Below are positions 14,423 to 19,079 of a stretch of 64,000 nucleotides of DNA, piece by piece (positions within the stretch are counted from its first letter, which is position 1; each line of letters begins with the position of its first letter). Where the stretch lies: NCBI RefSeq assembly GCF_003340495.1, contig NZ_QASA01000001.1:2232001-2296000 (forward strand), written 5' to 3'. This stretch comes from Adhaeribacter pallidiroseus. Lineage in GTDB: Bacteria > Bacteroidota > Bacteroidia > Cytophagales > Hymenobacteraceae. A program made the position numbers and the translations under genes. Below the pieces are notes generated by a model. That model was not told where the DNA came from, made no database searches, and saw only the letters and a program-made list of their open reading frames with translations.

Positions 14423-16132
14423 TTAATCACCAATTACATTAGCCGGTGAACAGTATTTTACAATCCGGTTGAACAGTTCATCCGGATTAAATGGTTTACT
14501 CACGTAATCGTTCATACCTACTTGAAAAGCCCGGTCTTGGATGTCCAGCATGGCCGAAGCGGTTAACGCTATGATAGGTATTTTTTGAAATTTTTCATCG
14601 GGTAATTGCCGAATAGCTAAGGTGGTATCGTATCCATCTTGTTCCGGCATTTGCAGATCCATTAAGATTAAATCATAATCGTTACTTGTAACCAAATCAA
14701 AAGCAATCAATCCATTTTCCGCAATATCGTAATCTATTTCCCATTGATCCAGGAATTGCTTCACCAGAAAAATATTAATTTGATTATCTTCTGCGATTAA
14801 TAAACGAGTGCCTTTTAGACTACGGGATACCGGAATTTCCAAAGCCGTATTAGCAGAAATTTGGCGGATACTATTATCAAAGGCTAAGTCAAAATAAAAG
14901 GTGGTACCTTTATTTATTTGACTTTCTACAAAGATCTCGCTGCCTTGTAATCTTAATAAATGTTTAATAATAGTTAAACCTAAACCAGAGCCACCGTACT
15001 CGCGGGTAGTATCGGATTTAGCCTGCGTAAAGCTTTCGAATATAATATCCAACTTATCCGCCTGAATACCAATACCGGTATCGGTGACTCTAAAATTAAT
15101 AATGGTCTGTGTTTGATTACTTTTAACAACCTCGGCCGAAACTACGACACTTCCTTCTTTAGTAAATTTTACCGCATTACTAATCAAGTTGGTTAATATC
15201 TGGCTTAAGCGTACCGGATCACCCTTTATAGCAGCCGGTAGATCCTGATCTAACAACAGCTTTAATCGTAATCCTTTTTCGTCTGCTTTTTGCTGGAAGG
15301 CATTGCAAATACTACCGATCAGTTTTTTCGGATTAAAATCAATTTTCTCAAACTCAATCTTACCGGCTTCTATTTTGCTAAAATCTAAAATATCATTTAT
15401 CAGGGTTAATAGATTATCTGCCGAAAACCGAAGTACTTTGAGGTATTCTTCTTGGTCAGCCCGGGGTTCATTATTCAACAACAAATGCGTAAAACCAATA
15501 ACGGCATTCATGGGCGTACGAATCTCGTGACTCATTGTTGATAGGAATTGGCTCTTGGCTTCGTTAGCTGCTTCAGCTTTATTTTTAGCTTCAATTAACT
15601 CTTGCTCCGTTTGTTTTTGCCTAGTAATATCCTTGGCTATAATTAATATGCCGTCGGTGGTTTTTAGGTTATTTTTTAAAAAAGAAAAAGAGCAGGAAGC
15701 TGGAAGTTTAGATTTGGCTTTCGTAGTAAATATTAATTCTTCATTCAGGCATTTTCCCTCACTTTTAAATCGATCCAGTACCCGCAAAAACGAAGGATTA
15801 TCAGACAAATTAACGAAAATAGAAAGCGGTTGACCCCGGAGCTCCGCTTCCTTAAAACCTAGTAATTCTTCAAATGCAGCATTAACATTCCGGATTGTGA
15901 AATCTGTGTTTAGAATCAAAAGCATATCCACTACTCCTTGGTAAATGCTTTGCATAAAATCCCTGGACACCGTCGAGTTCTTAAGCTCTTCTCCGAGCAT
16001 ATTTACGCCGGCAATAATGGCATCAAGCTCATCACCTGTATCGGAGGCATCCATTTTGTAATCAAAATTACCATTGGCTACTTCCGCGATTAGAGTAGTT
16101 ATTTCCTCGATTCTATCGTTCAGAATATTCAC
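14423..16132 (-). CDS. Soluble hybrid histidine kinase (HAMP-PAS-HisKA-HATPase-REC)
   Basis: 569 residues without a membrane segment. Order of domains: a HAMP-like helix pair (about 1-55), PAS (about 57-172), HisKA with phospho-acceptor His202 in STMSHEIRTPMN, HATPase_c with N-box Asn319 and G-boxes (DTGIGI, GGSGLGL), then a receiver domain with acidic AEDN (447-450) and phospho-acceptor Asp492 in ILMDLQMPEQDG. The output is presumably phosphotransfer to an Hpt protein or response regulator encoded elsewhere. It lies 34 bases downstream of the synthase/GNAT fusion gene on the same strand, so the two are probably co-transcribed. This placement suggests the kinase responds to, or is controlled by, the product of that enzyme. 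Confidence 0.85.
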   Translation of the reverse strand: MNILNDRIEEITTLIAEVANGNFDYKMDASDTGDELDAIIAGVNMLGEELKNSTVSRDFMQSIYQGVVDMLLILNTDFTIRNVNAAFEELLGFKEAELRGQPLSIFVNLSDNPSFLRVLDRFKSEGKCLNEELIFTTKAKSKLPASCSFSFLKNNLKTTDGILIIAKDITRQKQTEQELIEAKNKAEAANEAKSQFLSTMSHEIRTPMNAVIGFTHLLLNNEPRADQEEYLKVLRFSADNLLTLINDILDFSKIEAGKIEFEKIDFNPKKLIGSICNAFQQKADEKGLRLKLLLDQDLPAAIKGDPVRLSQILTNLISNAVKFTKEGSVVVSAEVVKSNQTQTIINFRVTDTGIGIQADKLDIIFESFTQAKSDTTREYGGSGLGLTIIKHLLRLQGSEIFVESQINKGTTFYFDLAFDNSIRQISANTALEIPVSRSLKGTRLLIAEDNQINIFLVKQFLDQWEIDYDIAENGLIAFDLVTSNDYDLILMDLQMPEQDGYDTTLAIRQLPDEKFQKIPIIALTASAMLDIQDRAFQVGMNDYVSKPFNPDELFNRIVKYCSPANVIGD

Positions 16133-16166
16133 GTATTTATTTTAACTTTTTAATTTTAAAAGGTTG

Positions 16167-18608
16167 TTATTCATTTTCTACGGCAATAGTGGCTTCTATC
16201 AACTCCATCGCATAATTATCTTTGGCTTGATAATAACCTACTTTCGGGTAAAGAGTAGCTCCCACCCTTTTCTTTTCGATAGTTGCCGAGATGCCAAAAT
16301 TTACTTTGGTGCACTGCAAAGCACTGGCCCGCCGGATTACCTGGTATAATGTTTGGCGGTAAACACCAAATTCCATTAAGTAATTGTAATCCATACCAAT
16401 TAACATGGGGCTATATACTTTAGCAGAATTAACGTGGCAAAAACAAACCGATACGGGCATTTGCGGCCCGGAAAATTCTTCTTTAATGTACAAAACCACA
16501 AACTCCCAATCTTTACTTTCGTTCATCAGATGAAAAAGCTTGTCTGGGAAAAGAAAGTTGTTTATAGCAAAATTGTTGTCTTTTACATTTTTGAACAAGC
16601 CAATGGCATGTTCTAGTTCCTCCGGTGTGAGACGCTGCTTAAATTTAACATCATAGTAATGTTCATTTCTTTTTATTTTTTGCACAAAGTGCCTTCTGTT
16701 TTTACGGGAAAGACTTTCCACGTATTCGGCCTCGGTAGTCCAGTTTAAATTTTCTACAACGCAGGATTCCGGCATGTCTACTTTCACGAATCCCAGATCC
16801 ACCATAAACTCATCCATGGCTGTGTCGTCGGCATCAAAGTCTCGTAAAATTATATTGCTGGCATTTTCTTTTTCCTGCACCCGGTATAGTTCTTCCGTTA
16901 TTATTTTAAAAGCCTCTTTCCAGTGGGTATTCTTCTTGTTTATAAAAATGTGACTGCCTTCGGTAAACAAGCTGCCCATTATCAGGCCGGTAGAAGTTAA
17001 ATAATATGGATTGTATTCGCGTTCTTTTTCAATAACTCTCGACACCGAGGACTGCGAAAACATATCTTCTTTATGCAAGCCCACCACAAAGAAAGTCATT
17101 AAAATTACTTCACCTTGGGCGTCTTCTACTATATAATATTTAAATTTCCAATTATTTTCCTGCTCTTCATTATCCCGGAAGGCTTTTTCTAAAAATTGTA
17201 CGCCATTCCAATCAAACATAGCATTATCACCCAAGTGTTTATTCCATAGATTAACATCAATGTTTTCTATGGTATGGTAACGCTTTACTACCAGCTGGTT
17301 AGGATCTACGATTTTGGGGGTTGCCACTACGTTAGTAGTAATGGGAGCCATCTTGAATGCTTTCCGGATTTTTTCATCCGTTTGGTTTGTTTCTATTAAT
17401 GCTTTCTTAAAATGAAAGTTTAGTTTATCTACTAAAACTCGAATGTGCTCTAGTGAGTTATTTAAAGAAATGGTAATACGAACACCAATATTCTTAGCTG
17501 GAACCGCAGGAAAAGTGGCCAGATTTACGTAAATGCCGTCGTTAATTAATTCCTGAACCAAATGATTACCCATATCCATGGAGCCGGTACCAATAAAAAA
17601 GATGGGACTATTACTTTCGTGCACCAAGGGCAAGTCGGTTTGTTTTAGTAAATGATTGAAGTAAGCAATTTTCTGCTGTAATTCTTTTTGATACTCGTAA
17701 ATCTCGTCGCTTAAATGGATGCGCGCTGATGCGATTGCTGCACCTAAAGTTGCGGGTTCAATCTGCACGGAAAAGGTAAGCGGACCACCAAAATTGTTTA
17801 CTTTGTTGTACCATTCTTCATTCGGGAAAAGCGATAAGCCGCCACAAGCTCCAAAGGCTTTCCCTAAATTAGCCGTGAGTATCATTTTACGGTATAAGCC
17901 TTCGGGCATTTGGCTCATCACATAGCCAGTACCATGTGTGCCAGCCCAACTCATGCCATGTGCATCATCTACGTAAAGGTAAAGTTGTTCGTATTTTTCA
18001 GCTAAAGCAATTAATTCTTTAATGGGAGCAAAGTCGCCGTACATGGAGTAAACCCCGTCAGCCATATACCAGATTTTATCATATTTGTTTCTTTGCTTTT
18101 TTATCCGGTCTTCCAGCATTTCCAGATTATTATGCCGGATCATCTCTACTGTTACTCCTTGGCTAAGCAACTTTTTAACCGCCTCCTGCACACTGGCGTG
18201 TACCTGGTGATCCAAGATGATTAAATCGTTGGCCCGGATAATACTAGGTATAGTGGTTAAATGCGAGAGCGTGCAATTTTTAGAAATAACAACCGGGGCA
18301 TTGTACATCGTGCGAATCATGGTTTCTAACTCGTTGTACAAGGGGTTGGAAATGTATGTACGCGACATGGGGAACTGCGTTCCGTAACGGTTAATGGCGT
18401 CGATCGAACCTTGTTTTAATTTTGGATGATGTTCCAGCCCCAAGTAGCCGCAAGTGCCAAAATGTAGAACCTGTTGCCCATTTAAAGTCAGCGTTTCCCC
18501 ATTTAAAGTTTGATCCTGCGCGTGTAAATGAATAATACCTTTCTTTTTAGATACCGATAAAACGGAATCTACGGTATCTAAGATGTTATTATGTCTAATT
18601 TTTGCCAT
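16167..18608 (-). CDS. Alpha-oxoamine synthase (CqsA/SPT-like) fused to a GNAT-type acyltransferase domain
   Basis: 813 residues in two parts. Residues 1 to about 410 are a fold-type I PLP enzyme of the alpha-oxoamine synthase family (serine palmitoyltransferase, KBL, BioF, CqsA). Visible landmarks are FGTCGYLGLEHHP, DDAHG (214-218), the PLP lysine Lys250 in LGKAFGACGG and a C-terminal VRITISLNNS block. These enzymes condense an amino acid or SAM with an acyl thioester, with loss of CO2. Residues about 440-813 resemble the Acetyltransf_6/FemAB-type GNAT group (SRKNRRHFVQKIKRNEHYYD, FGISATIEKKRVGATLYP). Substrates are unknown: possibilities are a sphingoid or sulfonolipid base that is then N-acylated, or an autoinducer-like ketone. 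It heads an operon with a hybrid kinase and diverges from a STAS-like gene. Confidence 0.8.
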   Translation of the reverse strand: MAKIRHNNILDTVDSVLSVSKKKGIIHLHAQDQTLNGETLTLNGQQVLHFGTCGYLGLEHHPKLKQGSIDAINRYGTQFPMSRTYISNPLYNELETMIRTMYNAPVVISKNCTLSHLTTIPSIIRANDLIILDHQVHASVQEAVKKLLSQGVTVEMIRHNNLEMLEDRIKKQRNKYDKIWYMADGVYSMYGDFAPIKELIALAEKYEQLYLYVDDAHGMSWAGTHGTGYVMSQMPEGLYRKMILTANLGKAFGACGGLSLFPNEEWYNKVNNFGGPLTFSVQIEPATLGAAIASARIHLSDEIYEYQKELQQKIAYFNHLLKQTDLPLVHESNSPIFFIGTGSMDMGNHLVQELINDGIYVNLATFPAVPAKNIGVRITISLNNSLEHIRVLVDKLNFHFKKALIETNQTDEKIRKAFKMAPITTNVVATPKIVDPNQLVVKRYHTIENIDVNLWNKHLGDNAMFDWNGVQFLEKAFRDNEEQENNWKFKYYIVEDAQGEVILMTFFVVGLHKEDMFSQSSVSRVIEKEREYNPYYLTSTGLIMGSLFTEGSHIFINKKNTHWKEAFKIITEELYRVQEKENASNIILRDFDADDTAMDEFMVDLGFVKVDMPESCVVENLNWTTEAEYVESLSRKNRRHFVQKIKRNEHYYDVKFKQRLTPEELEHAIGLFKNVKDNNFAINNFLFPDKLFHLMNESKDWEFVVLYIKEEFSGPQMPVSVCFCHVNSAKVYSPMLIGMDYNYLMEFGVYRQTLYQVIRRASALQCTKVNFGISATIEKKRVGATLYPKVGYYQAKDNYAMELIEATIAVENE

Positions 18609-18674
18609 ATAATTTTCCTATAATTGTACTCTAAAGTTTGACAACGCCAATATTGCACTTTATATTCAAAAAAA

Positions 18675-19079
18675 ATGGAACATTTCCAAGAAGGTGATAG
18701 AACAAGGCTGACAGAAACTAAATATGTCAACATGTTCATTAAAGACGGAATATTTCAATGCTACTTTAAAGCAATGGAAGTAATGGATATAGCAGTTGCT
18801 ATACGCACGGTAAAGGATCGTTTGAATTTTTTTGAGAACCAAGCCTATCCCTGTTTGTTTGATATAACGGAGGTAAGGCAAACTACCAAAGAAGCGCGCG
18901 ACTTTATGGCTAACGAAGGCAATAATTTAGTATTAGCCAGTGCCATGATTGTAACAAATCCAATGCTTAAAATGATGGCAAATTTTTATGTAATGGTAAA
19001 TCGGCCTAAAAACCCAACCAAATTGTTTACGGATCGGGAAAGTGCTTTAGAATGGCTTAACCAATTTAAACAAATTTAA
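18675..19079 (+). CDS. STAS/SpoIIAA-like small protein (DUF7793-like)
   Basis: 134 residues, no signal peptide. The pattern of an N-terminal beta strand pair (YVNMFIKDGIFQCYF), a PCLFDITEVRQTTKEARDFM segment and a C-terminal helix after FTDRESALEWL matches the STAS/SpoIIAA-like proteins found in Bacteroidota (DUF7793-type, named from memory). Such proteins are usually small cytosolic regulators. It is divergent from the synthase/GNAT gene with only 66 bases between the start codons, so the two share a control region. A TAAAGTTTG sequence at about 18631-18639 is close to the local -7 box (one extra base). Confidence 0.6.
   Translation: MEHFQEGDRTRLTETKYVNMFIKDGIFQCYFKAMEVMDIAVAIRTVKDRLNFFENQAYPCLFDITEVRQTTKEARDFMANEGNNLVLASAMIVTNPMLKMMANFYVMVNRPKNPTKLFTDRESALEWLNQFKQI

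Follow-up and report, generated by a model that had tools for sequence, protein, structure and literature searches.

A 64,000-nucleotide stretch of the Adhaeribacter pallidiroseus genome (NZ_QASA01000001.1, positions 2,232,001 to 2,296,000; the window) carries a gene for an alpha-oxoamine synthase (AOS) fused to a tandem GNAT half, followed on the same strand by a soluble hybrid histidine kinase gene and facing a divergently transcribed DUF7793 gene. Judging from how regularly the three recur together, the enzyme, the DUF7793 protein and the sensor very likely form a conserved functional unit. Their recurrence in many Bacteroidota suggests an internal chemical signalling system, so far unrecognised, in which the enzyme probably builds a small fat-like molecule. 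We tentatively propose, at a little short of an even chance, that the three genes are a signalling cassette in which the enzyme would produce, and perhaps also N-acylate, a lipid-like aminoketone that would be sensed intracellularly. The open reading frames (ORFs) lie where the initial annotation had placed them, with the 34-base gap and the 66-base divergent gap that it gave:

16167 to 18608, minus strand: AOS-tandem GNAT fusion enzyme, an ORF of 813 amino acids (aa)
17388 to 18608, minus strand: AOS half, residues 1-407, with the pyridoxal phosphate (PLP) lysine Lys250, H137, D214, H217 and R377; Cys53 replaces the usual Asn
16170 to 17303, minus strand: tandem GNAT/FemX-like half, residues 436-813
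16278 to 16706, minus strand: match to Pfam Acetyltransf_6, residues 635-777
14423 to 16132, minus strand: hybrid histidine kinase (soluble; 569 aa) that starts with GTG, 34 bases downstream of the synthase gene
15623 to 16123, minus strand: sensor input, soluble HAMP-like (residues 4-51) and PAS (69-170), common to partners of differing output
14462 to 15559, minus strand: kinase output, HisKA, HATPase_c and receiver domain, residues 192-557
18675 to 19079, plus strand: DUF7793 (SpoIIAA/STAS-like) protein, 134 aa
18609 to 18674, no strand: divergent intergenic region, 66 bases between the starts of the synthase and DUF7793 genes

Across 71 relative pairs, not dereplicated and measured between first-called ORF starts, the divergent spacing has a median of 93 bases. 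Loci were gathered from contigs (30 loci, 27 fused) and from genome samples of relatives, of the order and of the class, and their flanks were fetched. After 16 of 129 synthase records had been dropped for at least 95% AOS identity to a kept one, 113 remained, 74 fused and 39 unfused. Genes at most three genes from the enzyme were counted as near and those at least five genes away as far, and a protein was called sensor-like when it matched a profile of the HAMP-PAS input. A DUF7793 gene was near the enzyme in 67 of the 74 fused loci (66, plus L054, found by tblastn, where an opposite-strand ORF had hidden it), and a sensor-like protein in 64; some of the loci missing one partner end at a contig boundary. 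DUF7793 accounted for 80 of 415 near genes versus 3 of 436 far genes in these loci, and sensor-like proteins for 69 and 4, respectively. The three genes stay together well beyond close relatives, in the source order and in other families of the class. Other neighbours formed 39 clusters found in at least three loci, part of which were identified by Pfam, among them leucyl-tRNA synthetase (in the source genus), a large PKD-domain protein and an ABC transporter subunit. Among the identified clusters, only genes belonging to the AraC group, such as RteC and MauE, recurred at a fixed place by the fused enzyme.

The window kinase contains PAS_9 together with HisKA, HATPase_c and Response_reg, the last three all above their Pfam cut-offs as expected of a two-component hybrid kinase, while its HAMP match, at 24.9 bits, falls just short of the cut-off of 25. 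No membrane span was found in it by a 19-residue hydropathy scan, and 65 of the 69 sensor-like proteins near fused enzymes likewise had no span predicted by a simple hydropathy threshold, so that the missing membrane helix pointed out initially is common to nearly all of these sensors. Such solubility matches the earlier idea of an internal ligand, without proving it. The nearest partners in the 64 loci, classified by Pfam on representatives, carry HisKA with a receiver (16 loci), HisKA (12), HisKA_3 (13), AraC (10) or no recognised output (13). A profile made from kinase-type inputs only found 11 of 11 AraC-type and 15 of 17 output-less partners, versus 9 of 709 other ORFs (E ≤0.01; counted before dereplication, with contig-cut partners included). 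As far as sequence comparison tells, the HAMP-PAS input is constant among loci while the output domain changes. AraC-type partners occur, among others, in loci of Flavobacterium, Salegentibacter, Euzebyella and Cytophaga sp. FL35. In 8 loci with an AraC-type partner (L051, L052, L062, L130, L131, L133, L134 and L155), the gene immediately following the fused enzyme is of the RteC family, and in 10 loci a MauE-type gene is situated past the AraC partner; both are BLAST clusters of which one member was checked by Pfam.

In a 396-genome sample of the class, DUF7793 was present in all 32 genomes with a fused enzyme (one of them interrupted), in 3 of 32 with the unfused enzyme only and in 140 of 332 with neither, figures that were crossed by hand from two draws, with genomes equated by equal size and matching handles. 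Among 59 relatives, a best DUF7793 match with an E value of 3.4e-36 or better marks precisely the 8 genomes that have a fused enzyme; in the other 51, the best of all is 3.1e-31. The fused enzyme is patchy, being found in 4 of the 8 genomes of the source genus, and a phylum-wide sample gave matches in 9 of 345 genomes, all of the same class, where the number of other-class genomes sampled is not known. In genome G051 DUF7793 copies are located away from the enzymes, and in L155 (G242) the fused gene is an interrupted, decayed copy.

We then considered the family of the synthase half. NCBIfam AOS models cover residues ~8 to 400 of the window protein, and it scored below the cut-offs for CqsA, serine palmitoyltransferase (SPT), KBL, BioF, ALAS and every other curated model listed. 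The nearest was NF005697 (PRK07505), with 293 bits against a cut-off of 342, which leaves the enzyme outside that family, too; the SPT model NF047600 gave 149 bits against 640 (707 for the SPT L014) and the CqsA-type model NF005526 gave 86 against 428 (610 for Vibrio CqsA). PF00155 (Aminotran_1_2) was unreported for the window protein in the Pfam scan and reported for its relative L072. The whole 813-aa protein was modelled with a mean pLDDT of 86.6, and all of the 50 Foldseek matches listed for it were AOS structures. K250, H137, D214, H217 and R377 are kept in all 74 fused and all 39 unfused enzymes, and the window synthase has the PLP lysine, stacking His, DxH motif and substrate Arg of the AOS superfamily. 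The usual catalytic Asn is missing: its column holds C in 53 fused enzymes, T in 16, Y in 3, L in 1 and a gap in 1, and C in all 39 unfused ones, hence Asn in none of the 113 rows. It is kept in the SPT, KBL, BioF, ALAS, SulA-like and CqsA rows having that column (the KBL row of the source genome has a gap). A passage of PMC9304779 ascribes to Asn53 of SulA, together with an Arg, activation of the amino-acid carboxylate. The loss of this Asn makes a different amine substrate likely for the fused and unfused enzymes.

A maximum-likelihood tree of 69 AOS rows, with a single CqsA row (Vibrio) and no LqsA row, placed the fused and unfused enzymes in one clade (support 100/98), with PRK07505-type rows as its sister (100/95 for the two together). 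Vibrio CqsA and the SulA-like gene fell, with SPT, KBL, BioF and ALAS, into another clade (99/92), in which CqsA (length 4.1) and a few further rows have long branches. Support for the fused group itself was moderate (86/78), and a single unfused row, L179, falls within it. By sequence, the AOS half is thus a separate clade, sister to the uncharacterised PRK07505 and without the usual catalytic Asn, and not nested within the SPTs. With the gene linkage also reaching far beyond close relatives, neither of the two findings that the initial annotation had named as fatal to its signalling proposal was made. At position 281 (SulA numbering), where Lys is given as the SulA mark in a passage of PMC9304779, the window enzyme has Val, and none of the 113 clade rows has Lys. 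The residue is present in L003, a separate SulA/CFAT-type enzyme of the source genome (601 bits to 28eh); given this separate gene, the window enzyme is probably not the sulfonolipid synthase of its genome. Membership in SPT or SulA was rejected on the NCBIfam scores, the tree, the missing SulA Lys and the presence of L003.

Some further AOS genes came up alongside. The source genome encodes a very divergent AOS-like protein of 364 aa (L005:1450-2544), below all NCBIfam cut-offs listed and outside both tree clades. On Rhizobiaceae plasmids, PRK07505-type AOS genes lie directly after a response-regulator gene (L271:3160-5212 and L286:3108-5200), and the L271 gene has a Ti-type traA nearby as well; in the annotated copies L272, L278 and L279 no response-regulator gene adjoins. 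An AOS on a Roseomonas plasmid, examined for a neighbouring bacterial ceramide synthase (bCerS), had an acyl carrier protein but no acyltransferase among its listed neighbours; it was left out of the tree, as no ORF matched the profile.

Since the structures listed for the whole enzyme were all AOS, the GNAT half was folded alone. The model (mean pLDDT 89.7) has a tandem GNAT fold, with FemX as the closest Foldseek match and FemA, MprF/L-PGS, N-myristoyltransferase and tandem GNATs also among the matches listed. The E value against 1xe4 was 7.6e-11, and the 50 matches listed ranged from 8 to 13% in identity and from 0.34 to 0.60 in TM score (query). Acetyltransf_6 matched residues 635-777 with 30.8 bits (Pfam cut-off 22), in agreement with a GNAT assignment. 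A sequence search of the PDB gave no credible relative of this half, the two weak matches being annotated as alanyl-tRNA synthetase (E ~0.05).

The divergent gene, described earlier as STAS/SpoIIAA-like, encodes a DUF7793 protein (138 bits; Pfam cut-off 26). Against PF11964 (SpoIIAA-like; cut-off 25), a relative, L055, scored 25.7 bits and the window protein itself 15.1 bits; DUF7793 is probably a SpoIIAA-fold protein. The DUF7793 profile matched one solved chain, 3bl4, named uncharacterised, and we found no paper on DUF7793 in the open-licence literature. A passage of PMC2954212 describes a SpoIIAA-like protein whose nonpolar cavity is reminiscent of the CRAL-TRIO lipid carriers. DUF7793 genes were also seen near HAMP-PAS genes in L262, L263, L264, L268 and L269, where the synthase is absent from the fetched stretch (14 kb; 8.8 kb for L262); the two genes are five ORFs apart in L264. 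In G265 (L265, G265:C15) a decayed AOS fragment of 169 aa adjoins DUF7793 and an AraC partner.

Unfused enzymes of the same clade (L182-L188 and L231-L254) often lie near multi-span kinases and receiver genes. A kinase was at most three genes away in 21 of the 39 unfused loci, with at least two predicted spans in 20. Kinases made up 23 of 215 near genes versus 1 of 186 far genes, 22 of the 23 having at least two spans, and the N-terminal 230 residues are alike in many of them. DUF7793 was near in 2 of the 39 loci, so the link to a sensor is not tied to DUF7793 alone. These loci are laid out like CqsA/CqsS, without sequence kinship to it, and by analogy may represent a second CqsA/CqsS-like arrangement in Bacteroidota. 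The AOS gene of L182, L183, L238, L253 and L254 is immediately preceded by genes for a thioesterase and a thiolase (of each, one member was checked by Pfam).

The cassette that we propose builds on the domain content, the conserved AOS residues, the conserved neighbourhood, the varied outputs on one input and the lack of predicted spans; the reaction, product, ligand, binder and signal role we infer. By condensation of an acyl thioester with an amino acid, or a comparable donor of the amine, the AOS half would form a lipid-like aminoketone, and the GNAT half of the same polypeptide would modify the new amine, N-acylation being the simplest possibility. The hydrophobic product would stay within the cell or at its surface, where cytoplasmic proteins would read it: DUF7793, which could serve as its receptor or carrier, and the HAMP-PAS sensor, which would relay its own state to whichever output is attached in the lineage. 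According to a passage of PMC3376566, genes for autoinducer synthases and their sensors are usually adjacent. The signalling module suggested in the initial annotation is partly supported, by the gene conservation, the non-SPT synthase and the soluble sensors, but not in the kinship with CqsA/LqsA that it had invoked. A wider version, in which DUF7793 carries or reads an N-acylated aminoketone as an intracellular lipid messenger, HAMP-PAS proteins pass it to phosphorelay or AraC outputs and the unfused branch feeds membrane kinases as a separately evolved CqsA/CqsS-like system, is possible, but we consider it rather doubtful. No comparable synthase-sensor pair from Bacteroidota was found in the open-licence literature, among the matches listed, which is weak evidence of absence. 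If the proposal is true, an uncharacterised enzyme clade, DUF7793 and many orphan soluble sensors would share one ligand to seek. Two features allow the idea to be tested directly: the varied outputs on a conserved input, and the switch from membrane-spanning to soluble sensors in loci with the GNAT half.

Several observations weigh against a signalling role. Neither partner was near the enzyme in 5 of the 74 fused loci (L071, L072, L151, L169 and L177), and neither a kinase nor a receiver was near in 17 of the 39 unfused loci, of which five lie at most 0.9 kb from a contig end. A thioesterase adjoins the enzyme in 5 of the 39 unfused loci, a thiolase is at most five genes off in 5 unfused and 2 fused loci, and a further, mixed cluster, variable in position, covers 8 loci, of which 5 are among the 74 fused; both of its members that were scanned are short-chain dehydrogenases. 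The 13 output-less nearest partners comprise 2 cut by contig ends, 1 fragment (L161) that adjoins a separate kinase ORF, and 10 whole proteins of 215-299 aa without a recognised signalling output, two of which, when scanned with Pfam, gave PAS or HAMP alone, below the cut-offs. DUF7793 was near a HAMP-PAS protein without an intact synthase nearby in 6 of 8 further, hand-picked regions, so the sensor may detect something else, and the pair, as a general switch, may have been joined to the enzyme either to read its product or to control it. Finally, AraC-type partners and a divergent promoter are also compatible with plain local control. Under such control, the main alternative, DUF7793 and HAMP-PAS would sense an unrelated cue (membrane state, redox or energy) and switch a synthase whose product is a membrane lipid or metabolite; the acyl-CoA enzymes recurring by some unfused relatives would fit as well, and we regard this as a serious contender that nevertheless falls clearly below an even chance. 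Against it stand the pairing of unfused relatives with multi-span kinases, mostly without DUF7793, and the lack of any lipid-pathway gene at a fixed place by the fused enzyme among the identified neighbour clusters. As sphingolipid genes are not clustered in Bacteroidota, according to a passage of PMC11334938, the missing lipid genes argue little.

That clustering is not required also favours sphingolipid or sulfonolipid synthesis, in which an SPT- or SulA-like enzyme would act with a ceramide-synthase-like N-acyltransferase and the kinase would be adjacent by accident. An AOS joined to a GNAT is chemically suited to making an N-acylated long-chain base, and the bacterial ceramide synthase is a GNAT-type protein. 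The SPT score, the position in the tree outside the clade of SPT, KBL and the SulA-like gene, Val281, the separate L003 gene and the conserved kinase linkage all speak against it, and we consider it very improbable. True CqsA/LqsA-family quorum sensing by alpha-hydroxyketones in Bacteroidota would agree with the fold, the adjoining kinase and the similar gene logic, and the product chemistry could be similar. However, the CqsA-type model score is far below its cut-off, Vibrio CqsA belongs to the other clade (though on its long branch) and retains the Asn replaced here, and the sensors of fused loci are soluble; moreover, a single-sequence search with the membrane kinase region from Vibrio against the kinases of unfused loci gave nothing below an E value of 0.14. 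Membership was rejected on the NCBIfam score, the tree and the lack of a kinase-region match, and this explanation seems to us scarcely credible. Hybrid kinases are common in Bacteroidota, which would allow a kinase to adjoin a metabolic enzyme by chance. The positional enrichment in 74 loci, over the source order and other families of the class and with varying gene order, shows that the neighbourhood is not due to chance, and on the counts of near and far genes we regard this idea as refuted.

Compared with known systems, the closest enzyme family is the sister clade PRK07505 (NF005697), whose function is uncharacterised and in which 6 of 7 rows likewise have Cys in the Asn column; its two scanned members L271 and L272, above the cut-off that the window enzyme misses, are 413 aa long and have no GNAT half. 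SulA/CFAT and SPT share the AOS fold and most catalytic residues with the window enzyme, in a separate clade. FemX, MprF/L-PGS and the N-myristoyltransferase tandem GNATs share the fold of the C-terminal half at the low identities given above, and the SpoIIAA-like (PF11964) CRAL-TRIO-like proteins have the probable fold of DUF7793, with a weak match for the window protein. In CqsA/CqsS and LqsA/LqsS, as at the window locus, the gene for a PLP-dependent AOS-fold synthase lies by a histidine kinase gene (as seen in Vibrio sp. THAF64 and in a passage of PMC3376566). The window system differs from CqsA and LqsA in belonging to another AOS clade, in the replaced active-site Asn, in its fused GNAT half and DUF7793 partner, and in its soluble HAMP-PAS sensors.

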